A stretch of 64,000 nt of DNA from Catellatospora coxensis (GTDB taxonomy: Bacteria; Actinomycetota; Actinomycetes; Mycobacteriales; Micromonosporaceae): NCBI RefSeq assembly GCF_016862635.1, contig NZ_BONI01000011.1:62001-126000 (forward strand). Reading direction: 5' to 3'. The translations under genes and the position numbers were made by a program. The notes under the pieces are model-generated. The model ran no database searches. It was not told where the DNA came from and saw only the letters and a program-made list of their open reading frames with translations. Positions 10,690-62,098 of the stretch are shown here, one piece after another. Position 1 is the first letter of the stretch, and the number at the start of each line of letters is the position of its first letter.

Positions 10690-11522
10690 TCAGACCACGT
10701 CCCGGCGGTTGAAGGTGAACAGTGCGATGGCCAGCGACAGCACGGCGTAGCCGAGCAGCACCGCGACGGCGGCGCCCGGGCCGGTGGCCGCGGTGATGGC
10801 GAAGCCGCCGCCGGCGGACGGGTCACCGCCCTGCGCCTGCGCGATCGCGGCGGAGGCGGGGCCGAGCATGACGGCCCGGATCGGGTTCAGGTCGAGCGCA
10901 CCGAGGAGGCTGCCGAGCACGTTCTCCACCAGCAGCGTCCAGACCAGTCCGATGCCGATCGTCGCGCCGACGTTGCGCGTCACGATGCCGAGGGCGAAGC
11001 CGACGCTCGCCCAGGCGATCTCGACGAGCCACAGCGCGCCGGCGGCGGTCAGGAACTGGCCGAAGCTCGGGAAGACCAGCGGCCGCGCTTCGGCGAGCGA
11101 GACGACGGTGCTGCAGGCGGTGCCGACGACGAGGCTGATGATCGAGACGATCAGCATCACCAGCACGACGGCGGCATACCGGCCTAGCAGCAGGGCGCGC
11201 CGGTCGGCGAACCGGGCCAGGATGGTGCGCAGCGTTCCGTTGCGGTAGTCGCCGGCGGAGACCATGCCGCCGATGATCAGCATCACCGGCCCGCCCCAGA
11301 TCGGCATGGAGCCCACGATGTAGTGGTCGACGCTCGCCGGCAGCAGGCTGGCCAGCAGCGCTTCGGCCTGACCGGCGGCGAAGTCGGCGCCCATCGACAG
11401 GTAGATGACGTACGAGATGGTGTAGGCGAAGAGCAGGATCTGGGCGCTCCAGAACCCCACCAGCACCCAGACCGCGCGACGTCGCCGCAACGCGAACAGC
11501 TCAGCCGTCATGCTGTTGCCGA

Positions 11523-11526
<4 letters not shown>
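10690..11526 (-). CDS. ABC transporter permease (ABC-2 type), putative RiPP export/immunity
   Basis: This 278-residue protein has about six hydrophobic segments and no nucleotide-binding motifs. It is arranged like ABC-2 permeases of self-resistance transporters. The ATG at 11526 overlaps the TGA of the ATPase gene by four bases, so the pair is coupled. It ends with FTFNRRDVV after the last membrane segment. The gene pair diverges from the RiPP biosynthetic genes at 12729. By analogy with bacteriocin clusters it is a candidate for export of, or immunity to, the product; this is inference from position. Confidence 0.85.
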
Positions 11527-12467
<941 letters not shown>

Positions 12468-12580
12468 CAGGCGACACCTCCAACATGGCGGGAAGTTGGT
12501 CGGGAGGGCGGTTGAACTGCGGGCAAGTCTGTCACGTGATCGACGCCGTTCGCGACATCCAGCGGCGCGGCCGTCGCGCT

Positions 12581-12728: not shown

Positions 12729-14906
12729 GTGAGCCAGGTAACCACCGCCGCGCAGACCGTGCCCGGCGAGCAGCCGGCGGCGGAACTCGGCGGCATCGCC
12801 GACGTCCGGCCGCGGCTGCGCCACGACGTCGTGTTCGCCGACACCGGGTTCGGCGCGTTCGTGCGCAACACCGACACCGGGTTTCTGATCCGGGGCAAGT
12901 CGGCCTACCGGTGGCTCGCCACGCTGGTGCCGTACTTCGACGGTCAGGCCACCGTCGCGGAGCTGTGCGAGGGGCTGAACACCGATCAGCAGACGGTGAT
13001 CGCGTCGATGATGCAGACGCTGCTGGAGCGGGGTTTCGTCCGCGACAGCGTCCCGGAGCCGGCGGTCGACCTGCCGGCTGAGGTGATCGAGCGGTTCCGC
13101 AGCCAGATCGACTTCATCGCCCACTTCGCCGACGACGCGGTGACGCGGTTCGCCCGCTACCGCCGGGCCGCGGTGCTGATCGTCGGGGACGGCGACACGT
13201 CCCGGGCCATCGCCGCCGGGCTGCTGCGCAACGGCAGCCAGACGGTGGAGATCCGGCGGCCCGGGCCGTCGACGCCGGCCGTTGCGGTGGACACCCCGGA
13301 CGGCCAGGTCCTGTATTCGACCGGTCCGATCGCGGGCGGTCGCCACGACATGGTGGTGATCTGCGCCGACGAGGTCGGGCCCGCGACGGTCTGGCGGGCG
13401 TGCGCGAATCTGGCGCCGGACGGCCCGGCGGTGCTGCCGGTGCTGACGCTCGGCCGGCAGGCGATGCTCGGCCCGGTCACCCGGCACGGCGCGTCGCCCT
13501 GCTGGGGCTGCCTGCTGCTGCGGTTGCAGGCCAACGCCGAAGCAGGCGATCTGGCCCGGATGTGGCAGGCCATCGCGACCGCGCCCGGTGACGGCGACGG
13601 TCACCGATCGGGTCAGCGGCTGCCGAGCGCCTCGGTGGCGCAGATCGTCGGCAGCGCGGCGGCGTTCGACGTGTTCCGGCTGCTGACCGAGGCCCTGATC
13701 GGCGAGAGCGCCGGAGCGGTGCTGGTCCAGGATGTCGACACGCTGGAGTCCACGCGGGAGCGGCTGCTGCCGCATCCGGAGTGCGGCTGGTGCCACGGCG
13801 ACGGGCCGCCTGCTGCCGCCGGGCCGGCGCCGGAGGACCTGGTGGAGCGGGCCGACGGCGGGCCGATGTCCGAGGAGGAGATCCACGAACGTCAGCTGAC
13901 CCTGGTCCGCAAGCATGTCGGGATCGTCACCGCGTTCACCGATCACGGGCTCACGCAGTCGCCGCTGAAGGTGGCCCGCTGCCGGCTGGGGGGTGAGAAC
14001 GCGGCGCTGGAGTCCCGGGAGCTTACCGCGTTCGGCCTGGACACGCTGCTCGGGGCTCGGCAGGCGGTGCTGCAGCTGGCGGCGTCGACGTACGTGGACC
14101 GGCTGGCCGACCTGCGCGCTGCCGTGCCGGGCGACCGGCTTCCCGCGGAGCTGCGGCCGGACCCGTCGCGGCTGCGGATCGCGTCGGGTGTGGCGCTGCC
14201 CGCCGACCAGGCCGGCCCGCACCTGCCGGCGACCGACTTGCGCACCGGCGACCCGTACTGGCTGCCGGCGGCGGCCGTCTACCCGGCCGGGCCGCTCAAC
14301 GCCGCCGCCGCCTTCGAGCCGACCGGCGCCGGCAGCGGTGCCGGCTTGAGCGTCGAGCAGGCCACCGAGCGGGGGCTGCTGTCCGCGCTGGCCTACGAAG
14401 GGCTGCGGCTGGCGGCGTCCGGTGCGCCGGTGGCCGCGGTCGACCCGGCCGAGGTGAACGCCGACGAGCAGCTGTCCTTCCTGGCGACGACGGGCGGCCG
14501 GCTGGGCGTCACGGTGACGCTGTTCCGGCTGCCGGGGGCCGCCCCGGCGCATGCCGTGCTGGCCGCGGCGACAGGTGGCGCGCGTAGGCGCTGGTCGGTC
14601 GCGGCTTGCCTTGATCCCCGCGACGCCGCGGTCACCGCGCTGCGGGACGCGGTCGGGCAGGCGCAGCTCGACGCCGAGGGCATCGGCTTCGACCTGGGCC
14701 CCGACCTGCTGGCCGACTTCGACCCGGCCGCGCTGAAGGTGGATGGCGCGCAGCCGCCGCCGCCCGCTGTCGCGTCCGTCGAGGACCTGCTCGCCGCGCT
14801 GGCCGCCGGTGGCCGGCAGGCGCTGCGGGTGCTGACCACCACGCCCGACCTGGACCTGGTCGAGGTCGTGCACACGGTACGCGTGCTGCTGGTCGACGCC
14901 CGGTAG
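12729..14906 (+). CDS. TOMM leader-binding Ocin-ThiF protein fused to a degenerate YcaO-like domain
   Basis: This 725-residue protein is predicted to bind the precursor leader and activate the YcaO cyclodehydratase. Residues about 35-105 form a PqqD-like RiPP recognition element (TGFLIRGKSAYRWLATLVPY to LLERGFVRD). A ThiF/E1-like cyclodehydratase domain runs to about 360, with a four-cysteine zinc site Cys258/Cys261 and Cys352/Cys355. The C-terminal half keeps the layout of a YcaO domain (VTAFTDHGLTQSPLKVARCRLGG split over two blocks, then EQATERGLLSALAYEGLRLA). It lacks the acidic ATP/Mg-binding residues, so it is probably structural. The GTG start has GAGGAGGTC five bases upstream. A strong hairpin separates it from the precursor genes. 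Confidence 0.87.
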   Translation: MSQVTTAAQTVPGEQPAAELGGIADVRPRLRHDVVFADTGFGAFVRNTDTGFLIRGKSAYRWLATLVPYFDGQATVAELCEGLNTDQQTVIASMMQTLLERGFVRDSVPEPAVDLPAEVIERFRSQIDFIAHFADDAVTRFARYRRAAVLIVGDGDTSRAIAAGLLRNGSQTVEIRRPGPSTPAVAVDTPDGQVLYSTGPIAGGRHDMVVICADEVGPATVWRACANLAPDGPAVLPVLTLGRQAMLGPVTRHGASPCWGCLLLRLQANAEAGDLARMWQAIATAPGDGDGHRSGQRLPSASVAQIVGSAAAFDVFRLLTEALIGESAGAVLVQDVDTLESTRERLLPHPECGWCHGDGPPAAAGPAPEDLVERADGGPMSEEEIHERQLTLVRKHVGIVTAFTDHGLTQSPLKVARCRLGGENAALESRELTAFGLDTLLGARQAVLQLAASTYVDRLADLRAAVPGDRLPAELRPDPSRLRIASGVALPADQAGPHLPATDLRTGDPYWLPAAAVYPAGPLNAAAAFEPTGAGSGAGLSVEQATERGLLSALAYEGLRLAASGAPVAAVDPAEVNADEQLSFLATTGGRLGVTVTLFRLPGAAPAHAVLAAATGGARRRWSVAACLDPRDAAVTALRDAVGQAQLDAEGIGFDLGPDLLADFDPAALKVDGAQPPPPAVASVEDLLAALAAGGRQALRVLTTTPDLDLVEVVHTVRVLLVDAR

Positions 14907-15025: not shown

Positions 15026-15229
15026 ATGTCGAAGGTGGGAATGCTCTCGGACGAGCTGGCACAGCTCGAGACCGACACGTTCGAGATCCTCGATGTCGCC
15101 GACATCGCGGAGGACTCGATGGCCTGGTCGAGCTGCAGCACGTCCAGCTGCTGCAGCACCAGCAGCTCGAGCTGCTCCAGCTGCTGCAGCACCAGCTGCA
15201 GCTGCGGCAGCACCAGCAGCTGCGCATGA
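15026..15229 (+). CDS. RiPP precursor peptide 1 (TOMM/thiopeptide-type leader, Ser/Thr/Cys core)
   Basis: This 67-residue precursor has a leader of about residues 1-33 that is acidic and carries ELAQLETDTFEILDVADI. The leader matches the thiazolylpeptide-type pattern (Leu/Glu-rich with TFEI-D). The core, about residues 34-67, starts at Trp34. It contains 18 Ser, 4 Thr and 9 Cys among 34 residues; the rest are one Trp, one Gly and the C-terminal Ala. The ribosome binding site AAAGGAGGTGA is near-perfect and sits six bases before the ATG, as expected for a highly made peptide. The leader/core boundary after SMA is inferred by comparison with precursor 2. The Cys residues should become thiazoles and part of the Ser/Thr dehydroalanine/dehydrobutyrine or oxazole. 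Confidence 0.92.
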   Translation: MSKVGMLSDELAQLETDTFEILDVADIAEDSMAWSSCSTSSCCSTSSSSCSSCCSTSCSCGSTSSCA

Positions 15230-15274
15230 CCGGCGGCTCACGCGCACATCGAGACACCGGGGAGGAGGAACACA

Positions 15275-15481
15275 GTGAAGCACCTGATGCTCAAGGACGA
15301 GCTGGGACAGCTGGAGACGGAGACGTTCGAGATCCACGACATCGCCGAGATCGGCGAGGACCTCGGCGCCACCAGCACCACCAGCTGCGCGTGCAGCACC
15401 ACGAGCACCTGTAGCTGCAGCACGTCGAGCTGCTGCGGCTGCACCAGCAGCAGTTGCAGCAGCACCAGCAGCTGCGCCTGA
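15275..15481 (+). CDS. RiPP precursor peptide 2 (paralogue of precursor 1)
   Basis: This 68-residue precursor has a GTG start at 15275 preceded by GGGGAGGAGG. The leader (about 1-32) carries ELGQLETETFEIHDIAEI and aligns without gaps to precursor 1. The core (about 33-68) has 15 Ser, 9 Thr and 9 Cys among 36 residues, plus two Ala and one Gly. It shares the ending STSSCA with precursor 1 and has the same Cys count, but it is richer in Thr and lacks Trp. The paired genes suggest two related products, or a two-peptide product. After the stop, a shifted frame continues with core-like codons (see findings). Confidence 0.92.
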   Translation: MKHLMLKDELGQLETETFEIHDIAEIGEDLGATSTTSCACSTTSTCSCSTSSCCGCTSSSCSSTSSCA

Positions 15482-15640
15482 CCTGCAGTACCGGCTGCGC
15501 CGGCACCAGCAGCTGCGCCACAGCACCACGTCTCACCGGGGATGACCTGAGCACGGCCGTCGACCCCACCCCTTAATGCGCCACCCATCCATCCGTGTGC
15601 CTTGTGCCGGGCTGCCGATCCGACCCCGCAGCCTGCGGCG

Positions 15641-15700: not shown

Positions 15701-17662
15701 ATGACAGCCGAGGTGCTCAACGCGCCACCGACACCGGCGTCCCCGATGGAACACAGCCGCATCCGGGTCGCCGATCACCTCGCCGGGCTGCCCCTGCGGT
15801 CGGCCGACGGCCGGCCGGTCAGCACGTACACCGCGACGCTGGGCGAGACCGACCTGATGGGCGCCGCCCCGGATCTGGGCGGGCTGACCGGCCCGGTGCT
15901 GCCGGTGTACGTCTACCAGCGGGCCGTCGTCGTCGGGCCGCTGAACGAGTTGCCCGCTCCGGCGCAGCCGTGCCTGGTCTGCCTGGCCCGGCGCTGGCAG
16001 AGCCTGCGTTCGGAGGAGGAGCGCGACGTGCTCGAACACGGCGGCCGGATGCAGGGCGTGGCGCCGTCGCCGTTCCTGACCGACCTCGCGCTGCGTGCCG
16101 TCGGCGACCTGGCGGGCTGGCTGGCCCAGGCCGATCCGGGCAGCGTGCGCGACGACAACGGCTACCCCTTCGTGTACGAGATCCGCCTGGACACGCTGCA
16201 GGTGACCCGGCACCCGCTGGTGGCGGAGCCGGGCTGCCCGCTGTGCGGTGACGACGTCGTCGACAGCGCCGAGGCGGCCGTCATCGAACTGCAGTCCCGG
16301 CCGAAGGCGCATCCCGACGACTTCCGGCTGCGGTCGGTGCACGACTACGGGCTGTCGGTGGAGGCCTTCGCCAACCCGGTGTGCGGGATGCTCGGCACCG
16401 CGGCGATGCCCGCCTACGACAGCACCACCACCGCGCCGGTCACCGGCTACACCCGGGTGCGCGGCATGTGGAGCCTCAACGAGTTCTTCTGGAGCGGGCA
16501 CGCCGACACCTACGACGACAGCGCGCTGCTCGGCGTGCTCGAAGGGCTGGAGCGGTACGCCGGCCTGTCGCCGCGCGGCAAGGGCGAGCCGCTGCTGAGC
16601 TCCCTGCGCGAGCTCGGCGACACCCCGGCGCTGGATCCGCGCGACTGCGGTGTCTACATCGACGAGTACTACCAGAACACCTCGCCGCACTACCACCAGT
16701 TCACCGACGACCTGAAGGTGCCGTGGGTCTGGGGGTACTCGCTGCGGGACAAGCGCTCGATCCTGGTCCCCGAGCGGCTGGTCTACTACATGGGCCGCCA
16801 CCCCGGCACCAACTTCGTCCAGGAGTGCTCCAACGGCTGTGCGACCGGCAGTTGCCTGGAAGAGGCGATCTTCTACGGCATGCTGGAGCTGATCGAGCGG
16901 GACGCGTTCCTGCTGGCCTGGTACGGCAAGGCGCGGCTGCCCGAGATCGACCCGGGCAGCTGCCGCAGCGTCGGCACCCGGCAGATGATCGACCGGATGC
17001 GGCTGGTCGGCTACGACGTGCGGCTCTTCGACACCCGGATCGACCTGCAGATGCCGGTGGTGACCGGAGTCGCGGTACGCCGCGACGGCGGCCTCGGCCG
17101 GCTGTGTTTCGCGGCCGGGTCCAGCCCCGACCCGGAGGACGCCGTCCGGGCGGCGCTGTGCGAGATCGCCTCGTACGTGCCGAACTTCGACCACCGGGTC
17201 GAAGACGCGCTCGAGGACACCCGGGCCAGCGTCACCGACTACCGCAAGATCACCGAGTTGAAGCACCACGCGCTGCTGTTCGGGCTGCCGGAGATGGCCC
17301 ACCACGCCGACTTCCTGCTCGCCGACCCGCAGCCCAAGCCGATCGGCGAGATCTACGCCGGCTGGGAACGCGACCGGCCGCGCAACGCCGACCTGCGCGA
17401 CGACGTCCGGTACGGCGTCGACCTGCTGGCCGCGGCCGGCCACGACGTGATCGTCGTGGACCAGACGTCGCCGGAGCAGCGGCAGCTGGGGCTGCGTACC
17501 GCGTGCGTGATCGTGCCCGGTCTTATCCCGATCGACTTCGGCTGGCAGCGCCAGCGGGTGCTGCACATGCCCCGGCTGCGCACCGCGTTCCGGCGGGCCG
17601 GGTGGCGCGACACCGACCTGGCCATCAGCGAGATCAATTTCGTCCCGCACCCGTTCCCGTGA
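15701..17662 (+). CDS. YcaO cyclodehydratase (azoline-forming)
   Basis: This 653-residue enzyme converts Cys (and often Ser/Thr) side chains to thiazolines/oxazolines using ATP. The N-terminal ~200 residues form a TOMM-type partner domain with its own four-cysteine site (Cys91/Cys94, Cys179/Cys182). The YcaO domain begins near residue 240 and has the ATP/Mg blocks GVLEGLERYAG and GSCLEEAIFYGMLELIERDA. The C-terminus ends PHPFP, the proline-rich tail characteristic of azoline-forming YcaO proteins. The ATG at 15701 was preferred over an upstream in-frame ATG at 15602 because the latter would run through the attenuator hairpin. It needs the leader-binding partner at 12729. Confidence 0.93.
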   Translation: MTAEVLNAPPTPASPMEHSRIRVADHLAGLPLRSADGRPVSTYTATLGETDLMGAAPDLGGLTGPVLPVYVYQRAVVVGPLNELPAPAQPCLVCLARRWQSLRSEEERDVLEHGGRMQGVAPSPFLTDLALRAVGDLAGWLAQADPGSVRDDNGYPFVYEIRLDTLQVTRHPLVAEPGCPLCGDDVVDSAEAAVIELQSRPKAHPDDFRLRSVHDYGLSVEAFANPVCGMLGTAAMPAYDSTTTAPVTGYTRVRGMWSLNEFFWSGHADTYDDSALLGVLEGLERYAGLSPRGKGEPLLSSLRELGDTPALDPRDCGVYIDEYYQNTSPHYHQFTDDLKVPWVWGYSLRDKRSILVPERLVYYMGRHPGTNFVQECSNGCATGSCLEEAIFYGMLELIERDAFLLAWYGKARLPEIDPGSCRSVGTRQMIDRMRLVGYDVRLFDTRIDLQMPVVTGVAVRRDGGLGRLCFAAGSSPDPEDAVRAALCEIASYVPNFDHRVEDALEDTRASVTDYRKITELKHHALLFGLPEMAHHADFLLADPQPKPIGEIYAGWERDRPRNADLRDDVRYGVDLLAAAGHDVIVVDQTSPEQRQLGLRTACVIVPGLIPIDFGWQRQRVLHMPRLRTAFRRAGWRDTDLAISEINFVPHPFP

Positions 17663-17684: not shown

Positions 17685-19298
17685 ATGACGACCACGAGCG
17701 ACTACATCGATGCGGTGCTGCGCCGGGCACGTGCGCCCATGCCGCCGTTCGGCTGGGAGACCGACTGGCACGACCAGCCGCTGCGGCACAAGGTCTACCC
17801 GCAGGTGCACCGGCTGCCGCTGCCCGCCGGTCTCGACCAGCCGGCCGGGCCGCTGGGCCGGGCGCTGACCGTCGGCCCGGCCGGCCCTGCCGACGGGTTC
17901 ACCCTCGACCGGCTCGCCGGGCTGCTGCGGACCTCGTACGGGCTGCTGGAGCGGCGGCTGCGGGTCACCGGCAACGACGACAACGACCGGCGGTACTGGG
18001 GCCAGAACACCACCTGGGGCCGGGGAACCGCGTCCGGCGGCGGCCTGTACCCGCTGGAGATCTACTGGGTCTCGGGGCCGTCCGGGCCGGTGCTGCCGGG
18101 GGTCTACCACTACTCCAGCCCGCACCATGCGATGGAGCGGCTGCTGGCCGGCGACGTCACCGAGCAGGTGCGCGCGGCGGCGCCGCACGCTGCCGAGATC
18201 GCCGCGACGGATCAGTTCCTGCTGGTCACGGTGAAGTTCTGGAAGAACGCGTTCAAGTACAACAGCTTCTGCTACCACGTCGTCACGATGGACCTCGGCG
18301 CGCTGCTGGGCACCTGGCGGCTGTGGAACGCCGCCCAGGGCCTGCCGGCGACCCCGACGCTGTGGTTCGACGACGCGAAGCTCAACGGGCTGCTCGGCCT
18401 CGACGGGTTCGGCGAGAGCGTGCTGGCGGTCGTCCCGCTGCCCTGGGCCCGACCGGCCGCACCGGGCACGGCGTCTGCGGCCGCGCTGCCGGGGGCCGAC
18501 CCGGCCGTCGGCAGGGCCGAGTGGGAGCGTTCGCTCAGCGTGCACCGGTTCACGCAGGTCGAGGCGGTGCACCAGGCGACGTTGCTCGACGCCTCGGCGC
18601 GCCCGCCGGCAGCCGGCGCGGCCGCTGACGCCGCCGCGCGGCCGGTCCGGGTCGCGGCCGAGCCGGTCAGCCTGCCACCGCCCGACTTCGACCGGCTCGA
18701 CGCCGACGTCGCCGCGGTGCTGCGCAGGCGGCGGTCCAGCTTCGGCGCGTTCGTCGGCCGGCCCCGGCTGCCGGCCGAGGACCTGTCGGTGCTGCTGGCG
18801 TCGGCGTCGGCGGCCGCCCGGCTGCCGCTGGACGCCCGCGGGTCCGGCGATCCGCCGTTCACCCGGCTGTGCGTCTTCGTCAACCACGTCGCCGGCGTGC
18901 CGGCCGGCGTCTACGACTACGACGACGCCACCGCGACGTTGCATCCGGTCCGCGCGGCCGCGCTCGGTGAGCTGCTGCAGCGCAACTACTTCCTCGACAA
19001 CTACAACCTGGAGCAGGCCGCCGCGGTGATCGCGGTGGTGGCGCGCCCGGTCCAGGCGGTGGCGGCGCTCGGCGACCGCGGCTACCGGGCGGTCAACGCC
19101 GAGGTCGGGGCCGTCACCCAGGGGGTGTACCTGGCCGCGACCGGGCTCGGCGTCGGCTGCGGCGCGGCGCTGGGCTTCGACAACACATCGCTGGCAGAGC
19201 TCGCCGATCTCGCCGACGGCGACGAGTGGCCACTGATCATCCTGATGGTCGGCAACGAGCGCTCCGACGACGCCGACGTCGACTACCGGCTGTCGTGA
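17685..19298 (+). CDS. SagB-type azoline dehydrogenase with two nitroreductase domains
   Basis: This FMN-dependent oxidase (537 residues) would turn azolines into aromatic azoles. The first nitroreductase-like domain (about 60-270) has the SagB block RGTASGGGLYPLEIYWV and a KFWKNAFKYNSFCYHV segment. An Ala/Pro linker follows. The second domain (about 340-530) starts with RRRRSSFGAF and ends LGVGCGAALGFDN then WPLIILMVGNE. Tandem nitroreductase domains are common in the longer SagB subgroup. GGAGG sits eight bases before the ATG, and the gene follows YcaO by 22 bp. Confidence 0.92.
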   Translation: MTTTSDYIDAVLRRARAPMPPFGWETDWHDQPLRHKVYPQVHRLPLPAGLDQPAGPLGRALTVGPAGPADGFTLDRLAGLLRTSYGLLERRLRVTGNDDNDRRYWGQNTTWGRGTASGGGLYPLEIYWVSGPSGPVLPGVYHYSSPHHAMERLLAGDVTEQVRAAAPHAAEIAATDQFLLVTVKFWKNAFKYNSFCYHVVTMDLGALLGTWRLWNAAQGLPATPTLWFDDAKLNGLLGLDGFGESVLAVVPLPWARPAAPGTASAAALPGADPAVGRAEWERSLSVHRFTQVEAVHQATLLDASARPPAAGAAADAAARPVRVAAEPVSLPPPDFDRLDADVAAVLRRRRSSFGAFVGRPRLPAEDLSVLLASASAAARLPLDARGSGDPPFTRLCVFVNHVAGVPAGVYDYDDATATLHPVRAAALGELLQRNYFLDNYNLEQAAAVIAVVARPVQAVAALGDRGYRAVNAEVGAVTQGVYLAATGLGVGCGAALGFDNTSLAELADLADGDEWPLIILMVGNERSDDADVDYRLS

Positions 19299-19308
19299 GA
19301 GGAATCAG

Positions 19309-22074
19309 ATGAACACGAACACGGCACCGTCGCCCACGGACGCCCGGGCCACCGAGTGGATCCTGCCGCCCTTCTTCATGCTGAGGCTGGCCGGCCTGCC
19401 CTTCGACACCGTCGCCCCGCTGCGGTTCCCGCAGACCGTCGCGTGGACGCAGGCCATGCTGGAGGTGGAGCAGCGGCTGCGCGAGGGCGCGCCGCCGGTG
19501 CTCGACGCGCTGGAAGCGGTGATCAGCGAGGTGGCCGGGCAGACCGAACGCGGCCGGCTGATCGAGATCCGCCGAGACGTCTACAACGGGCGGGCGCCCC
19601 GGCAGCCGGCCGAGGCGATCGCGCTGGTGGGCCGGCACGCGCCGCAAGCCGGGCCGGCGCTGGCCGGGTGGCTGGCCGCCCACGACGAGCTGGCCCGGAT
19701 CCGGGCGACCGGCGCGCAGATCCTGGCCGATGAGCAGCTCGACCGGCAGCGGCACCTGCGCGAGCTGGCCACCCATCCGCAGTTCCGGGCCGGTCTGCTG
19801 CTGTCGTCGCCGTCACTGGACCGCTACCTGCCGACCTTCCTGAGCAACCCGGCCGGTCCGCTGGGCAAGCGGGCCCGGCGGATCGAGCGGTCGCTGCTGG
19901 AATACGTGTACCGCACCGCCTGCAAGACCAGCCCGTTCTCCTGGCTCACCCCGGTCGGCCTGGGCCGGTTCACCCAGGGCAGCGGCGACCCGCTGATCGT
20001 CGAGACGGCGCCGGAGCAGTGGCGCAGCTTCCCCCGGCTCAACCTGGCCGTGCTCGGCCGGCTCGGCGACACCCTGCTCGCCGAGCCGGCGCTGCGGGCC
20101 GACCTGCCGATCCAGGTGACGTCCGGGTGGCGCAACGACCGCAACCGGGTGCGCTACGTGCGCCGGCAGCGCCGGGCCGGTGACGACGACGCGGCCGGCA
20201 GCATGGACATCCTGCAGGAGAACCTGTTCTACCTCACCTCGGGCACCGTGCTCACCGAGCTGCTGGAGACGATCCCCGACGGGACGTCGCTGACGTTCGG
20301 CGAGCTCGTGACACGGCTGCACGACAACGATCCGGAGCACCGCCGCCCGGCCGACATCGACGCCTACCTGGTGCACCTGCTGCGGCTGGGCCTGCTGGTG
20401 GTGCCGCAGCTGCACATCGACCTGCATCACCCCGATCCGGTGCGCGGCTTCCGCGACGGTCTGGCGCAGCTCGGCCGCGGCTGGAGCGCGGAGGTGTGCG
20501 AGCGGCTGGACCTGGTGTCGGGATATGTGCGCGAGTACGCGCACGCCGACCTCGACCGGCGGCGTGACCTGCTGGAGGCGATCCGCGGCGAGCTCGCCGA
20601 GGGTCAGCACGACCTCGGCCGTGCCGAGGCGACTCTGCCCAGGACGGTGCTGTACGAGGACGTGTCGCTCGGCGCGGGCCGGGTCACCGCCGACGAGGCG
20701 CAGTGGCGGGAGAAGATCCTGCCGGCCGCGGCCGGGCTGTCGAAGATCCTGCCCGTCTTCGACCTGATGCTGCCGCACCGGCTGACCGCCAAGGGGTTCT
20801 TCCGGGCACGGTTCGGCCCCGGCGGCCGCTGCACCGACCTGGTGCGGCTGGTGCACGAGTTCCACCAGGACTTCTACGACCAGTTCCTGGAGTCCACCGC
20901 GCGCCGGCGGCCGTTCAACGAGCAGCTGGAGTATCAGCCGCAGGAGAACTGGTTCCAGCTGGCCGAGATCACCGCGCTCGACAAGGCGCGGGTCGAGCTG
21001 GTCCGGCGGATGCGCGAAGCGTACGCGGCGCACCCCGATCCGGCGGCCGACCTGGTGCTCGACGACGACTTCATGGACGGTGTCGCCGAGCTGCTGCCCG
21101 ACAACATCAACGAGTTGAACCCGCGCAGCTTCTTCCTGCACCTGGCCGAGATCGACGGCCGGCCGCAGGCGGTGCTCAACCGGGCCTACAGCGGGCTGAC
21201 GCTGCTGTTCAGCCGGTTCGCGCACTGCTTCGCCGACGGCGGCGAGGTCGAGCACGGGCTGGTCGAGGGGCTGAAGGCGACGCTGGCGCAGCTGGCGCCG
21301 CCCGGGGCGGTGTTCGCCGAGCTGACCGGCGGCTATGACACCACCAACCTCAACCTGCACCCGTCGGTGGTGCCGTACCAGCTGGTGTGTCCCGGCGATG
21401 TCAGCTTCCGGCCGGTCGCCGAGCAGATCCCGGTCGACGACCTGGTGATCGAGGACGATGTCGAGGGCGACCGGCTGCGGCTGCGCTCGCAGCGGCTGGG
21501 CGTCGAGGTCATCCCGGTGTACCTGGGCTTCCTGATGCCGATGGCCCTGCCGGAGGTGCAGCGGATCCTGCTGACCTTCTCCTACACCAACATGTCGGCG
21601 ATCGACATGTGGTCGGGGACCGACCAGCCGCTGGGCGACGACGAGATCGGCGGGCACCCGCGCCTGGTCTACAAGGACCTGGTGCTGACCCGGCGGCTGT
21701 GGAAGATGGACCCGGCGAGCCTGCCGGTCCGGGGCGCCGGGCAGTCCGACGCCGACTGGTTCCTCGACTGGAACCGGTGGGCGCGCAAGCACGGCCTGCC
21801 GCGTCGGGTGTTCGCCTCCCAGGACGCGTCCGCGCCGGCGGTCCGCAAGCCCGGCGCGCCGGCCGGGCCGCCGCCGAGCACCAAGCCGCAGTATGTCGAC
21901 TTCGACAGCTTCATGTCGTTGTCACTGCTCGACAACATGATCAAATCAGCGGGCCGGCGGGTGGTGCTGACCGAGATGCTGCCCGACGCCGAGCACCTGT
22001 GGGTCCGCGCCGACGGAAACCGCTGGGTGACCGAATTGACCGTGGAGATCGACGGCCGGAGGAGCAACCGATGA
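19309..22074 (+). CDS. LanB-type dehydratase, glutamylation protein (split form)
   Basis: This 921-residue protein corresponds to the N-terminal part of class I lanthipeptide dehydratases. It uses glutamyl-tRNA to esterify Ser/Thr hydroxyls of the precursor. Recognisable blocks are the N-terminal FFMLRLAGLPF, SLLEYVYRTACKTSPFSWLTPVG at about 195-215 (split here into SLLEYVYRTACK and TSPFSWLTPVG) and NLNLHPSVVPYQLVCPG near 680-700. The family's C-terminal elimination domain is absent and is supplied by the next gene, as in goadsporin and thiopeptide clusters. GAGAGGA precedes the ATG. The stop overlaps the next start (ATGA), so the two halves are made together. Confidence 0.92.
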   Translation: MNTNTAPSPTDARATEWILPPFFMLRLAGLPFDTVAPLRFPQTVAWTQAMLEVEQRLREGAPPVLDALEAVISEVAGQTERGRLIEIRRDVYNGRAPRQPAEAIALVGRHAPQAGPALAGWLAAHDELARIRATGAQILADEQLDRQRHLRELATHPQFRAGLLLSSPSLDRYLPTFLSNPAGPLGKRARRIERSLLEYVYRTACKTSPFSWLTPVGLGRFTQGSGDPLIVETAPEQWRSFPRLNLAVLGRLGDTLLAEPALRADLPIQVTSGWRNDRNRVRYVRRQRRAGDDDAAGSMDILQENLFYLTSGTVLTELLETIPDGTSLTFGELVTRLHDNDPEHRRPADIDAYLVHLLRLGLLVVPQLHIDLHHPDPVRGFRDGLAQLGRGWSAEVCERLDLVSGYVREYAHADLDRRRDLLEAIRGELAEGQHDLGRAEATLPRTVLYEDVSLGAGRVTADEAQWREKILPAAAGLSKILPVFDLMLPHRLTAKGFFRARFGPGGRCTDLVRLVHEFHQDFYDQFLESTARRRPFNEQLEYQPQENWFQLAEITALDKARVELVRRMREAYAAHPDPAADLVLDDDFMDGVAELLPDNINELNPRSFFLHLAEIDGRPQAVLNRAYSGLTLLFSRFAHCFADGGEVEHGLVEGLKATLAQLAPPGAVFAELTGGYDTTNLNLHPSVVPYQLVCPGDVSFRPVAEQIPVDDLVIEDDVEGDRLRLRSQRLGVEVIPVYLGFLMPMALPEVQRILLTFSYTNMSAIDMWSGTDQPLGDDEIGGHPRLVYKDLVLTRRLWKMDPASLPVRGAGQSDADWFLDWNRWARKHGLPRRVFASQDASAPAVRKPGAPAGPPPSTKPQYVDFDSFMSLSLLDNMIKSAGRRVVLTEMLPDAEHLWVRADGNRWVTELTVEIDGRRSNR

Positions 22075-23129
22075 GCCGACACGAGTTCGCCGCGCCCGTC
22101 GCCGCCGAGCGTGGCGACTGGCTGGCGGTGCACGTCTTCTATGCCAGCAACAATCTGCCGCTGCTGGTCGACTGCATGCTGCCGCTGGTCCGCCAGCTGC
22201 AGCAGCGCGGGCTGATCAGCGGCTGGTTCTTCATCCGGTACTGGATGGAGGGCCCGCACATCCGGCTGCGGCTGCGCCCGGCGACCGCCGCGCACGAGGC
22301 CGAGGTGCGCCGGCAGGTCGAGCAGGAGGTGCAGACGTTCCTGCGGCACCGGCCGGCGCTGTACCACATGGACGAGGAGCTGCTCGGCCCGCTGTACAAG
22401 CAGATGTTCCTGTCGGAGTACACCGAGCAGGAGTGGGAGGACAAGTACGGGGATGGCGGCATGCCGTTGCGCGACAACAACAGCTACGCCTACCTCCCCT
22501 ACGAGCCGGAGTACGACAAGTACGCCGGCCCGGTCGGCATCGAGATCTCCGAGTGGCACTTCGAACGGTCCAGCGACATGGTCATGTCGCTGCTGGAGAC
22601 GACCAACGTGCACATGCGCACGGTCATGTTCGGTCTGGCGACGCAGTTGATGACCGCGATGACGATGACCATGCTGCGGGATCGGGAGTCCGCCGCCGGG
22701 TTCCTGGACAGCTACCGCGACTTCTGGGAGACGGCGTTCCAGACCCCGGACCCGGACCGGCACGCCCGGTTCGACATCACCTACGACGAGATGGCGCCCC
22801 GGATGATCCGCCGGGTCGGTGAGATCTGCGCGGCGATCGACGGCCAGACCCCGCTGACCGGGTTCACCGGGCGCTGGGTCGCGCACTGCGTCGAGCTGCG
22901 CGAGCGGATCACGGCCGCCGCGCAGGCCGGTGAGCTGGTGTTCGCGGCCCGGGACGGGTCCGGGCGCGTCGAAGTGGTCACCGATCCGCAGGCGGCGCTA
23001 CGGGCGCTGCTGTTCAGCTACGTGCACATGACCAACAACCGGCTCGGGGTGAGCATCGTCGACGAGGTCTACCTGTCGTACCTGCTCCACCGCGTGCTGG
23101 CCGAGGCGTACGCGGAGGCGGCCAGATGA
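22071..23129 (+). CDS. LanB C-terminal/thiopeptide-type elimination protein
   Basis: This 352-residue protein belongs to the SpaB-C/thiopeptide-type bacteriocin biosynthesis family. The opening WLAVHVFYASNNLPLLV and the block GWFFIRYWMEGPHIRLRLRP are diagnostic. It most likely removes glutamate from glutamylated Ser/Thr to give dehydroamino acids, completing the reaction begun by its upstream partner. The same fold also makes the [4+2] pyridine synthases of thiopeptides. Because only one copy exists in the cluster, elimination is the safer call. It has four-base coupled overlaps on both sides, and GGAGG lies eight bases upstream of the ATG. Confidence 0.9.
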   Translation: MSRHEFAAPVAAERGDWLAVHVFYASNNLPLLVDCMLPLVRQLQQRGLISGWFFIRYWMEGPHIRLRLRPATAAHEAEVRRQVEQEVQTFLRHRPALYHMDEELLGPLYKQMFLSEYTEQEWEDKYGDGGMPLRDNNSYAYLPYEPEYDKYAGPVGIEISEWHFERSSDMVMSLLETTNVHMRTVMFGLATQLMTAMTMTMLRDRESAAGFLDSYRDFWETAFQTPDPDRHARFDITYDEMAPRMIRRVGEICAAIDGQTPLTGFTGRWVAHCVELRERITAAAQAGELVFAARDGSGRVEVVTDPQAALRALLFSYVHMTNNRLGVSIVDEVYLSYLLHRVLAEAYAEAAR

Positions 23130-24394
23130 CGGCGCAGGCCGCGGCGGCGACGGCCGAGCACGGTGCGACACGTCCTCGGCTGCACCCGAGCGTGCTGCTC
23201 GGACCGGGCCTGACCGACGGCACCTCGGTGACCCACCACCTCAAGGACCCGCGCACCGGCTGGTTCTTCAAGGTGGGCGTCCGGGAGTTCTTCGTGATCA
23301 GCCGGCTGGACGGCGTGCGCAGCCTCGACGACATCGCCGAGGAGTACGCCGCCCGGTTCGGGCGCAGGCTGTCCGAGCAGCACTGGCAGCAGATCATGCA
23401 GCTGCTCGGCGGGCGGCGGCTGCTGGCCGGCCCGGAGGACGCCGACGCGCTGCGCAGGCTGACCGCGTCGGCCCGGGCCGGCAGCCGGGGCAGGCGCAAC
23501 CTGCTGCACTGGCGTATCCCGCTGGCGGCCCCGGCGCGGCTGTTCAGCCGGGTCGAGCCGGCGGTCCGCTGGCTGTGGTCGGCGTGGTTCGTGCTGCCGG
23601 CGGCCGCGGCGGTGCTGGCGATGCTGACCCTGATGTCGGTGCAGGGGGCGCGGCTCTACGACGACGCCCGGCAGCTGGCCGACAGTGTTCCGGTGCTGCT
23701 CGCGTTCGTGGCGATCTACTGGCTGACGCTGGCCGTGCACGAGGCCGCGCACGGGCTGACCTGCATCCACTTCGGCGGGACGTCGCCGGAGATCGGGCTG
23801 CTGTGGCGGTTTCCGCTGCTGGCGCCGTACTGCAAGGCCGACGACGTGATGCTGTTCGCGCGGCGCCGGCACCGGTGCTACACCGCGTTCGCCGGTGTCT
23901 TCGCGCAGCTGCTGACGTTGACGCCGGCGGCGCTGCTGTGGCCTCTGCTGCCGGCGGGTCCGGCACGCACGCTGTGCGCCGCGCTGGTCCTGTACGGCAG
24001 CGGCTCCACGCTGCTGAACCTGATCCCGTTCCTGCAGCTCGACGGGTACTTCATGCTCAACCACGCGCTGAACATGGTGAACCTGCGGGCCGGGGCGTAC
24101 CGGTTCTGGGCCCGGGTCCTCGACCGGCTGCGTGGCCGTGCCGCGACGGGCGAGTACCCGCGCCCGGCGGGCTGGGCGTACGGGGCCTACGGTGTCGCCT
24201 CGTTCGTCTTCGCGACCGGGCTGGTCGTCGGGCTGTTCGCCGTGTGGTTCGGGCAGCTGCGCGGGCCGCTGGGCGCGGCGGCGGCCGCCTCGGTGCTGGG
24301 CGGTGTGGCCCTGTTCGGCGTGGTGATGGCGGTCGTGCTGAGCCGGCGGGCCAGGCGCCGAACCGCCCCGGCCGTCAGCGCGGTGGTCCCGTGA
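23126..24394 (+). CDS. PqqD-like domain fused to an M50/site-2-protease-like membrane metalloprotease
   Basis: This 422-residue protein has a RiPP-recognition-like winged-helix domain at about residues 30-115 (TGWFFKVGVREFFVISRLDG to LLGGRRLLAG). About six or more membrane segments follow. The zinc protease motif HEAAH is at 205-209 and the third ligand is Asp306 in FLQLDGYF, matching the M50 pattern. It resembles YydH-type peptide zinc metalloproteases of RiPP loci. It is a candidate for leader cleavage at the membrane, or for handling the peptide during export. No separate leader peptidase was found in the cluster. It overlaps both neighbours by four bases. Confidence 0.88.
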   Translation: MTAQAAAATAEHGATRPRLHPSVLLGPGLTDGTSVTHHLKDPRTGWFFKVGVREFFVISRLDGVRSLDDIAEEYAARFGRRLSEQHWQQIMQLLGGRRLLAGPEDADALRRLTASARAGSRGRRNLLHWRIPLAAPARLFSRVEPAVRWLWSAWFVLPAAAAVLAMLTLMSVQGARLYDDARQLADSVPVLLAFVAIYWLTLAVHEAAHGLTCIHFGGTSPEIGLLWRFPLLAPYCKADDVMLFARRRHRCYTAFAGVFAQLLTLTPAALLWPLLPAGPARTLCAALVLYGSGSTLLNLIPFLQLDGYFMLNHALNMVNLRAGAYRFWARVLDRLRGRAATGEYPRPAGWAYGAYGVASFVFATGLVVGLFAVWFGQLRGPLGAAAAASVLGGVALFGVVMAVVLSRRARRRTAPAVSAVVP

Positions 24395-25734
24395 CCGGGC
24401 AGCCCGCGATTTCGGGCCCGGAGCAGCCGGCGGGGACGCAGGTTCCCGCGCTCGCGGTCGGCCCGCGGTCCGGGCAGGTCGACGAGACTCTGTCCATCGT
24501 GGTCAGCGGCCTGCGTGCCGGGCAGCGGGTGACGGTGCGGGCTGCCACCCGGGACGGCGCGCTGGTCGACTGGCATTCGACCGCCGACTTCGTCGCCGCC
24601 CCGGACGGGACCGTCGACGTCGGCCGGGACGCCCCGGCGGCCGGCTACCCGGGTGTCGATCCGCTGGGACTGCTGTGGGCGATGCGGCCGACCGACCCCG
24701 GGCGGCAGGTGTTCTTCACCAAACGCCGCCCGACCGCGCTGAAGGTGACCGTGTCCGCGCGGGCCGGCGGCGAGTCCATCGGCGAGGTCGGCATCGAGCG
24801 CTGCTTCGGCGGTGAGCATGTCCTCGGCCGGCCGACCGGCGACGACCTGGTCGGCACCCTCTACCACGATGACGAGCGCCGGCCGGCGCCGGCGGTGCTG
24901 CTGCTGGCCGGCTCGGACGGCGGCCAACTGGACCACGCGGCCGCGCTGCTGGCCGGGCGGGGCTACGCCGCGCTGGCGTTGAGCTACTTCGGGGCCGAGG
25001 ATCTGCCGCCGACGCTGTCACACATCGATCTGGGCTACTTCCGGCGGGCCGTGGACTGGCTGCTCGATCAGCCGGAGGTCGACCGGTCCCGGCCGGCCAG
25101 CGTGATCGGCCTGTCCCGCGGCGGCGAGCTGGCGCTGCAGCTCGCGGCGCTGGACGCGCGGCTGCACAACGTCGTCGCGGCGGCGCCGAGCTCGCTGCGG
25201 CAGGCGGGGCTGACCAGCAACTACACCGACTACGGTCAGCCGGCGTGGGAGCTGGACGGGCGGGCGCTGCCGTTCCTCAAGGGCCGCTACAACTTCGGCA
25301 CGTTCCTGTCGTTCGCGCGGACCTGGCTGCTGGCTCGGCCGATGCGCCAGCGCCGGGCTTTCGAGCGGGCGATGCGCGACGCGGACGCGGTCGCGGCGGC
25401 GCGCATCGAGGTCGAGGCGATCACCGGGCCGGTGCTGCTGATCAGCGGCGCCGATGACCGGCTCTGGCCGTCCGACGTCTACGCCGGCCAGGTCGAACGG
25501 CGTCTGCTGGCGCACGGGCACCCGGCCGAGGTGGTCAACCTGACGTATCCGGGGGCCGGGCACTTCGTCAGCTTCCCGTACGCGCTGCCGGGCATGCCGC
25601 CGATGGTGTCGATCTCACCGATGAGCCGGCTGCGGATCGACTTCGGGGGCAGCGCGCCGGCCAACGCGGCGGCAGCCGTCGACTCATGGCGCCGCGTACT
25701 GGAGTTCCTCGGCCGGCACACGTCCAGGAGCTGA
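24391..25734 (+). CDS. BAAT/acyl-CoA thioesterase-like alpha/beta hydrolase
   Basis: This 447-residue protein pairs an N-terminal Ig-like BAAT_N-type domain (about 20-150: SGQVDETLSIVVSGLRAGQ, HSTADFVAAPDGTVDVG) with a C-terminal alpha/beta hydrolase. The nucleophile is Ser242 in GLSRGGE, the acid Asp is in SGADDRLWPS and the His is in GAGHFVSFPY. Family members hydrolyse acyl-CoA or transfer acyl groups to amines. Here it might acylate or hydrolyse the peptide, or act in self-protection; no direct evidence chooses. GTG at 24391 overlaps the upstream TGA by four bases, so it is truly part of the operon. Its 3' end overlaps the convergent SARP gene by 51 bp. Confidence 0.87.
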   Translation: MTGQPAISGPEQPAGTQVPALAVGPRSGQVDETLSIVVSGLRAGQRVTVRAATRDGALVDWHSTADFVAAPDGTVDVGRDAPAAGYPGVDPLGLLWAMRPTDPGRQVFFTKRRPTALKVTVSARAGGESIGEVGIERCFGGEHVLGRPTGDDLVGTLYHDDERRPAPAVLLLAGSDGGQLDHAAALLAGRGYAALALSYFGAEDLPPTLSHIDLGYFRRAVDWLLDQPEVDRSRPASVIGLSRGGELALQLAALDARLHNVVAAAPSSLRQAGLTSNYTDYGQPAWELDGRALPFLKGRYNFGTFLSFARTWLLARPMRQRRAFERAMRDADAVAAARIEVEAITGPVLLISGADDRLWPSDVYAGQVERRLLAHGHPAEVVNLTYPGAGHFVSFPYALPGMPPMVSISPMSRLRIDFGGSAPANAAAAVDSWRRVLEFLGRHTSRS

Positions 25735-60259: not shown

Positions 60260-62098
60260 GTGAAACACCCGCTCACCCGCCGCACCGGCCGGAGCCTGCG
60301 ACGGCTTGCCGCCGTCGCGGCCGGCCTGCTCCTGGCGCTCACACTCGCGCCGGTCAGCGCCGGCGCGGACAACCCGATCGTGCAGACGATCTACACAGCC
60401 GATCCCGCCCCACTGGTCCACAACGGCCGCGTGTACCTCTACACCGGTCACGACGAGGACGGCTCGACCTATTTCACGATGAAGGAGTGGCGGGTCTACT
60501 CCTCGGCCGACATGGTGAACTGGACCGACCACGGCGTGCCGATGAGCCTGTCCACCTTCAGCTGGGCCAGCGCCGACGCCTGGGCCGGGCACGTGGCCTA
60601 CCGCAACGGCAAGTTCTACTGGTACGTCCCGGTCAAGAACCGGGCCACCGGCGGCATGGCCATCGGGGTGGGCGTGTCCAGCAGCCCCACCGGCCCGTTC
60701 ACCGACGCCCTCGGGCGGCCGCTGGTCGAGAACGGCGAGATCGACCCCAACGTCCTCATCGACGACGACGGCCAGGCCTACCTGTACTGGGGCAACCCCC
60801 GCCTGTGGTACGTCCGGCTGAACACCGACATGATCTCCTACTCGGGCGGCCCGACCCAGATCCCGCTGACCACCAGCGGCTACGGCACCCGCACCGGCAA
60901 CACCAGCCGCCCGACCCTGTACGAGGAAGGCCCCTGGGTCTACAAGCGCAACGGCATGTACTACAACGTGTTCGCGGCCGAATGCTGCTCGGAGTTCATC
61001 GGCTACTCCACCGCGACAGGCCCCACCGGGCCCTGGACCTACCGCGGGACCGTCATGCCGCGCCAGGGCGCCAGCTTCACCAACCATGCCGGCGTCGTCG
61101 ACTTCAACGGCGGCTCGTACTTCTTCTACCACAACGGCGCCCTGCCCGGCGGTGGCGGCTACACCCGGTCGGTGGCCGTCGAGAAGTTCACCTACAACAG
61201 CAACGGCACCATACCGACGATCAACATGACCAGCTCCGGCGCGCCGCAGATCGGCACTCTGAACCCGTACGTGCGCCAGGAGGCCGAGACGATCGCCTGG
61301 GAGACCGGCGTCGAGACCGAGCCCGCCAGCGAGGGCAGCCTCAATGTCGGCTGGATCGACAACGGCGACTACATCAAGGTCAAGGGCGTCGGCTTCGGCA
61401 CCGGTGCGACGTCGTTCACCGCACGGGTCGCCTCGGCGGGCGCGGGCGGCAACATCGAGCTGCGACTGGACAGCCTGACCGGCCCCGTCGCGGGAACGTG
61501 CGGGGTGGCCGGCACCGGCGGCTACCAGACCTGGGCGACGGTCACGTGCGCGGTGTCCGGGGCGACCGGCACCCGTGATCTGTACCTGCGGTTCACCGGC
61601 AGCGGCGGCGGCCTGTTCAACGTCAACTGGTGGCAGTTCGGCGGCGGCACGTCCAGCGGCAACCAGCTCACCAACGCCGACATGGAGTCGGGCACGACCG
61701 GGTGGGCCGTGTTCGGCAGCGGCACCCTGGCGTCCAACACGTCAGTCGTGCACGGCGGCAGCAGGTCGGTGCTGCTCACCGGCCGCACCGCCGCCTGGAA
61801 CGGCGTCCGCCAGGACGTCACCGCCACACTCGTCAACGGCAAGAGCTACACCACCAGCGTCTGGGTACGCACCCAGAGCGGCACCCCGTCGGCGAAGGTC
61901 ACCCTCGCCGTGACCGCCAACGGGTCGACCGGATACGTGCAGCTCACCCCTGCCGCGACGGTGAACTCCGGCGGATGGACCCAGCTGACCGGCACCACGA
62001 CCGTCTCCTGGACCGGAACCCTGTCCGGCGCGAGCCTCTACGTCGAGACGGCGGCCGGCACCGACGGCTACTACCTCGACGACGCCTCCTTCCAGTGA
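60260..62098 (+). CDS. Secreted GH43 glycosidase with CBM6 and CBM4/9-like module
   Basis: This 612-residue exported enzyme is probably an arabinan- or arabinoxylan-active arabinosidase/xylosidase. A signal peptide covers about residues 1-35. The five-bladed GH43 domain (about 37-330) has the base Asp in YTADPAPLVHNGRVYLY, the pKa-modulating Asp in EIDPNVLIDDDGQAYL and an acid Glu in LYEEGPWVYKRNGMYY. A CBM6 (about 335-465) and a C-terminal CBM4/9-type beta-sandwich (about 470-612: NADMESGTTGWAVFGSG) follow. The GTG at 60260 has GAAGGAGAG four bases upstream; longer frames lack a signal peptide at the start. Confidence 0.9.
   Translation: MKHPLTRRTGRSLRRLAAVAAGLLLALTLAPVSAGADNPIVQTIYTADPAPLVHNGRVYLYTGHDEDGSTYFTMKEWRVYSSADMVNWTDHGVPMSLSTFSWASADAWAGHVAYRNGKFYWYVPVKNRATGGMAIGVGVSSSPTGPFTDALGRPLVENGEIDPNVLIDDDGQAYLYWGNPRLWYVRLNTDMISYSGGPTQIPLTTSGYGTRTGNTSRPTLYEEGPWVYKRNGMYYNVFAAECCSEFIGYSTATGPTGPWTYRGTVMPRQGASFTNHAGVVDFNGGSYFFYHNGALPGGGGYTRSVAVEKFTYNSNGTIPTINMTSSGAPQIGTLNPYVRQEAETIAWETGVETEPASEGSLNVGWIDNGDYIKVKGVGFGTGATSFTARVASAGAGGNIELRLDSLTGPVAGTCGVAGTGGYQTWATVTCAVSGATGTRDLYLRFTGSGGGLFNVNWWQFGGGTSSGNQLTNADMESGTTGWAVFGSGTLASNTSVVHGGSRSVLLTGRTAAWNGVRQDVTATLVNGKSYTTSVWVRTQSGTPSAKVTLAVTANGSTGYVQLTPAATVNSGGWTQLTGTTTVSWTGTLSGASLYVETAAGTDGYYLDDASFQ

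Follow-up and report, generated by a model that had tools for sequence, protein, structure and literature searches.

Goadsporin of Streptomyces sp. TP-A0584 carries azoles and dehydroalanine (Dha) on a linear peptide, and its god cluster encodes a cyclodehydratase, a dehydrogenase and a LanB dehydratase split into GodF and GodG, as set out in excerpts of PMC5303826. Features of goadsporin's own, in the same excerpts, are a 19-residue core, one structural gene, a GNAT acetyltransferase and a peptidase-ABC transporter. A similar set of azole and LanB genes accompanies two small genes, P1 and P2, in the 64,000-nucleotide stretch of Catellatospora coxensis DNA analyzed here (the window; positions 62001–126000 of the 158,697-base contig NZ_BONI01000011.1, in a 9.35-Mb genome). 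P1 and P2 encode precursors of ribosomally synthesized and post-translationally modified peptides (RiPPs) whose C-terminal regions consist almost only of Ser, Thr and Cys.

Other described families share parts of this arrangement. The coryneazolisins, named from genomes only, combine YcaO and lanthipeptide-like dehydratases without a [4+2] enzyme, are predicted to be non-macrocyclic and have a core rich in Cys, Ser and Thr; their own traits are a Corynebacterium origin, two D proteins and a core of ten Cys/Ser/Thr, one Ile and 5–7 further residues (passages of PMC4603692). Dehydrazoles such as carnazolamide carry azoles and dehydro residues on a 30-residue peptide, with dehydration by a DUF4135 LanMbC enzyme of their own (excerpts of PMC10676384), and thiopeptides such as lactazole use a leader-binding protein with YcaO, a dehydrogenase and a split LanB (portions of PMC7210931 and PMC4603692). 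We favor, at a probability of about 0.68, the reading that the products of P1 and P2 are not thiopeptides but linear peptides of about 26–37 residues bearing azoles and dehydroamino acids, made by goadsporin-like chemistry and belonging to an uncharacterized actinobacterial RiPP branch.

Precursors and their conserved cores

P1 and P2 are genuine RiPP precursor genes, open over 67 and 68 codons, as the original prediction held. Recounting agreed with its composition: Ser, Thr and Cys make up 31 of the 34 C-terminal residues of P1 and 33 of 36 in P2, with nine Cys apiece and one Trp in the core region of P1. Ten other proteins of the window have a Ser+Thr+Cys frequency of 0.113, against which the binomial tails for these counts are 1.7e-26 and 2.5e-28. 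An AGGAGG-like stretch, noted by eye, precedes both starts. While the composition stands, the core lengths of 34 and 36 residues depend on start points chosen by the earlier reader, and the boundaries are putative. The leaders, earlier called near-identical, are related but not more than that, matching in 19 of 34 aligned columns. Downstream of P2, the 15 bases directly before its stop (15464–15478) recur out of frame at 15505–15519, 41 bases on, surrounded by Ser/Thr/Cys-like codons; the copy is perhaps a remnant of a duplicated precursor end.

Relatives were gathered with the YcaO protein as query, which gave 9 loci in genome contigs; matches at E ≤ 1e-120 were present in 19/298 genomes of the order, 5/396 of the phylum and 33/250 of the family, counts that overlap one another and include the window's own genome. 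A tblastn search without composition correction matched much low-complexity sequence and gave way to a second one. Two kinds of YcaO neighborhood emerged, one with a single YcaO and long cores and one with two YcaO genes and short cores. The long-core set comprises 21 loci, the window and 20 relatives, with 1–7 precursors per cluster and 65 precursors counted by pattern, at least one of them an eroded frame (L136). Duplicates (L038, L044 and L045, of L004, L010 and L011) and one spurious frame in L009 were dropped before counting. The precursor scan left out L001, L013–L037 and L057, and the two-YcaO loci (L006, L012, L049–L052, L054–L056, L066–L072, L138–L140) as well as L048 and L134 stand outside the 21-locus count; L040 ends at a contig edge. 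The pair of precursors earlier reported is thus right for the window, but the number varies among relatives. In 44 distinct precursors of the long-core cluster type, delimited by one operational rule, core lengths are 26–37 residues (median 30), and the gene order F protein, precursors, YcaO, SagB, LanB N, LanB C and HExxH protease is the same in the window and its relatives where covered. Eroded-core frames lie beside intact precursors in two loci (L133:11418-11873 and L136:7330-8196).

The core of P2 is identical at 33/36 positions to two Modestobacter precursors (L004), and that of P1 at 29/35 aligned positions to its best relative, its nearest cores being in L039 and L004. As many as three types of core (A, B and C) occur in Micromonospora clusters; L135 has cores A and B only. 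Core A, of 29 residues, is identical in 10 of the 21 loci, among them Kribbella (L008), Actinomadura (L009), a strain labelled Streptomyces (L007) and Micromonospora (L011 and others), so that a relative's core has kept its Ser, Thr and Cys in exactly the same sequence. In five pairs of loci sharing core A, the leaders agree at only 14–22 of 31–32 positions and six enzymes are 33–75% identical. The core codons differ synonymously at 7–9 of 29 positions in these pairs, including 3–4 swaps between TCN and AGY Ser codons in four of them and none in the closest pair (L008/L009). Twenty-nine chance identities at the composition of core A have a probability of about 4e-13, a test made on core A itself.

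It is hardly credible, therefore, that P1 and P2 are low-complexity frames open by chance over a GC-rich AGC/TGC repeat. The DNA is indeed repetitive and has further open frames, but the leaders belong to one family, and the identical cores of relatives with synonymous codon changes contradict such an origin. More telling here than the binomial tails is the recurrence of such peptides, alongside the same enzymes, in 20 other clusters. Since core A is fixed between genera while leaders and enzymes are about half different, the Ser/Thr/Cys order appears to be read very exactly. Such constancy would be more in keeping with a conserved physiological role (as a signal, a developmental peptide or a surface peptide) than with a weapon that changes fast. 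Whether these peptides amount to a new class (long, nearly fully modified and linear, with azoles and dehydro residues, a sequence fixed across actinobacterial genera and several co-produced per strain) is a tentative proposal that we consider possible but would not presume.

Enzymes and the LanB C-terminal protein

A YcaO protein, a leader-binding partner and an azoline dehydrogenase are all present in the cluster, together with a split LanB. With the 26–37-residue core lengths, these genes agree with the long polyazole/dehydro peptides of the original prediction, and the thiopeptide frame that it implied fits less well. The LanB N-terminal protein (LanBN) matches 6ec7 (phmmer E 5e-28) and the goadsporin protein 9jhq (E 3e-17), which we take to be TbtB and GodF, respectively. 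The goadsporin-type combination, in which YcaO, a dehydrogenase and a split LanB occur with no additional cycloaddition enzyme, is present, provided that the LanB C-terminal protein (LanBC) is an eliminase.

As the pyridine synthase model NF045556 gave no match over its cut-off in 396 genomes, the role of LanBC was weighed against reference proteins from six clusters, retrieved via a LazC-like protein encoded in the window's genome; with that query counted in, the set has 7 LazC-like and 6 LazF-like proteins. These clusters are presumably lactazole-like, having a LazA-like leader. The motif HMxxNR is present in 23/23 LanBC proteins and 6/6 LazF-like eliminase domains and in 0/7 LazC-like proteins. 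A LanBC profile scores the LazF-like proteins at 63–97 bits and the LazC-like ones at 12–29 bits. TIGR03891 is passed by the window LanBC in its longer frame (86.7 bits, cut-off 48.45), by 4/4 LanBC scanned (86–110 bits) and by 6/6 LazF-like proteins, in which a SagB domain over its cut-off is fused to the TIGR03891 domain; it is not listed for the 5 LazC-like proteins scanned (of 7), which list only NF045556. In a computed alignment, the elimination domains of NisB and MibB match LanBC at the same motifs; in NisB, roles are assigned to the residues R784, E823, R826 and H961. The roles given to the LazC-like and LazF-like references themselves rest on portions of PMC7210931.

Two results weigh against elimination. 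The predicted fold of LanBC is nearest to the pyridine synthases TbtD and PbtD, and LanBC proteins score 89–117 bits with NF045556 (116.8 bits for the window LanBC in its longer frame; cut-off 325), intermediate between LazF-like and LazC-like proteins. The motifs and TIGR03891 side with eliminases, and the fold and NF045556 scores do not.

These scores and the fold would suit a long-tailed thiopeptide, in which LanBC, or a protein encoded elsewhere, acts as pyridine synthase and closes a macrocycle from two Dha with release of the leader. The precursor models lend this alternative something as well. TIGR03892 is passed by 4/4 sister-type precursors scanned (L048 counted), one of them exactly at the cut-off, and one also passes NF033400; among long-core relatives 2/5 scanned pass one of these thiazolylpeptide models. 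The window precursors reach 20.6 and 24.4 bits with NF033400 (cut-off 30), and P2 12.2 bits with TIGR03892 (cut-off 25), below both cut-offs. A lactazole-like thiopeptide cluster also lies at a contig end of the window's genome (L093, G000:C130:6000-15748), with two precursor-like frames, a LanB N protein and a LazC-like protein. Nevertheless, we judge a thiopeptide unlikely. The NF045556 scores fall far under the cut-off (although the LazC-like proteins are under it as well), and the HMTNNR motif and the TIGR03891 match separate LanBC from the LazC-like proteins. There is a single LanB C-terminal (PF14028) protein per cluster where covered, and a separate pyridine synthase was not found in the cluster. 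A PF14028 search of 11 related genomes gave exactly one match in 6, one of these a single-contig genome, and two or three in the other 5; the window's genome has five. Were LanBC a pyridine synthase, LanBN would be left without an eliminase in those 6 genomes. Without a pyridine synthase, the product would not be a thiopeptide macrocycle.

Alternatively, Dha and dehydrobutyrine (Dhb) from the split LanB could form thioether rings with Cys, as in lanthipeptides. The many Cys, Ser and Thr and the LanB pair would allow this, but the cluster has YcaO, F protein and SagB, and no LanC-like protein was matched among cluster genes in Pfam scans between 9612 and 29541, the rest of the genome not being searched for it. 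Although non-enzymatic cyclization is conceivable, we regard this as highly improbable. A further alternative is a linear azole peptide whose LanB pair has a different task, for example the attachment of a residue, and forms no Dha. Some LanB relatives are peptide aminoacyl-tRNA ligases. Literature excerpts indicate that such ligases exist, yet a LanB C protein adjoins LanBN in the clusters where covered, and we consider this alternative very unlikely.

Cluster organization and a proposed route

By Pfam and NCBIfam scans, the cluster runs from an ABC pair on the other strand through the F protein, P1, P2, YcaO, SagB dehydrogenase, LanB N, LanB C and HExxH protease to a BAAT-like protein (Table 1). 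A 598-residue frame at 10690–12486 on the minus strand was rejected, as it overlaps the ATPase gene.

Table 1. Features of the cluster in window coordinates, with predicted roles.
Feature	Position	Strand	Basis
ABC-2 type permease (putative exporter/immunity subunit), start approximate	10690..11526	-	PF12679 36.7 bits; relatives in 14/25 loci
ABC transporter ATPase	11523..12467	-	PF00005 98 bits; relatives in 22/25 loci
F protein, ocin-ThiF-like (putative leader-binding partner of cyclodehydratase)	12729..14906	+	TIGR03882 56.7 bits, cut-off 36.9
Precursor P1	15026..15229	+	ATG start, 67 aa; core ~33–34 residues from near WSSCSTSSCC (putative boundary)
Precursor P2	15275..15481	+	GTG start, 68 aa; core ~36–37 residues (putative boundary)
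YcaO cyclodehydratase (predicted azoline formation)	15701..17662	+	TIGR03604 315.5 bits, cut-off 219.25; TIGR03882 99 bits, cut-off 36.9
SagB-type flavin dehydrogenase (predicted azoline to azole)	17685..19298	+	TIGR03605 148 bits, cut-off 78.4, two stretches; PF00881
LanB N-terminal half (predicted Glu-tRNA-dependent glutamylation of Ser/Thr)	19309..22074	+	PF04738 143 bits
LanB C-terminal protein (putative glutamate eliminase)	22071..23129	+	PF14028 163 bits; HMTNNR motif
HExxH (M50-like) membrane metalloprotease, likely leader peptidase	23126..24394	+	NF041824 162 bits, below cut-off 300
BAAT-like acyl-CoA thioesterase/acyltransferase	24391..25734	+	PF08840 112 bits, PF04775 78 bits; start overlaps protease stop

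The modification of core residues, the cleavage site and export, like every enzymatic step, are predicted from this gene content, and the proposed order of steps follows that in goadsporin and lactazole. The F protein would bind the leader (ELxxLExxTFEI) and present the core to YcaO, which may cyclize mainly Cys, and perhaps some Ser and Thr, to azolines; the SagB enzyme would oxidize these to azoles. LanBN could then glutamylate the leftover Ser and Thr using Glu-tRNA, and the single LanBC would eliminate glutamate to give Dha and Dhb. In goadsporin the azoles come first, and glutamylation is not seen without them (excerpts of PMC5303826). Finally, the membrane HExxH protease may cut off the leader and the ABC pair export the linear product; M50 proteases act in epipeptide and pearlin maturation, according to passages of PMC10885120. 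Such a system would be a clean one in which to study how the same residues are divided between a cyclodehydratase and a LanB dehydratase, and could yield backbone-rigid peptides longer than goadsporin.

The F protein scores 84 bits with TIGR03693, below its cut-off of 561.9, and its C-terminal part is a degenerate YcaO-like stretch (residues 498–717; PF02624 32.2 bits). The protease carries its motif as HEAAH, at residue 205, has four hydrophobic stretches and scores 17.1 bits with PF02163, below the cut-off; the HExxH motif is present in 22/22 relatives of both cluster kinds and in the window. Outside the window, a BAAT-like gene was met only in L004 (18592–19848), likewise coupled to the protease gene, among the 25 and 9 loci searched, the DNA of some stopping shortly past the protease gene. 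Any acylation thus looks like a local trait. On the minus strand after the cluster lie a BTAD/NB-ARC regulator, a LuxR-type regulator and a kinase-like protein, the last below the Pfam cut-off.

The two-YcaO sister clusters have 1–3 precursors where recognized, with cores of about 22 residues. They occur in different genera (L006, L012, L049, L051, L054, L055, L066, L067, L072 and L138), and several of the short precursors end SSTTSTTSC(S/T)A. No precursor was recognized in L050, L052, L056, L068–L071, L139 and L140.

Comparison with described systems

No description of this precursor family was recognized among the matches listed in open PMC literature, a search that would miss a description elsewhere, and the core and leader strings gave one unrelated match, a bridging code in a lanthipeptide paper. 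This is a real azole/dehydro RiPP branch for which no description was found in that literature. The precursors share the leader type LExETFEI with the thiazolylpeptide precursors of NF033400 and TIGR03892, to which the two-YcaO sister clusters belong, but the window precursors do not reach either model and the sister cores are shorter. The difference from thiopeptides is that no separate pyridine synthase was found in the cluster, and lies also in a core about twice the 12–18 residues given for them in the original prediction. The DUF4135 dehydratase of the dehydrazoles has no match among the cluster genes scanned with Pfam in the window. In contrast to goadsporin, there are several precursors with cores of about 34–37 residues made nearly entirely of Ser, Thr and Cys, and an F protein. 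Neither a GNAT acetyltransferase nor a peptidase-ABC transporter is among the scanned cluster genes; the ABC pair there is a separate one, and an M50-like protease and a BAAT-like protein accompany it. Coryneazolisins and goadsporin already join azole enzymes to LanB enzymes and lack a cycloaddition enzyme, as portions of PMC4603692 indicate; the striking point here is that core A keeps three residue types in one fixed order.
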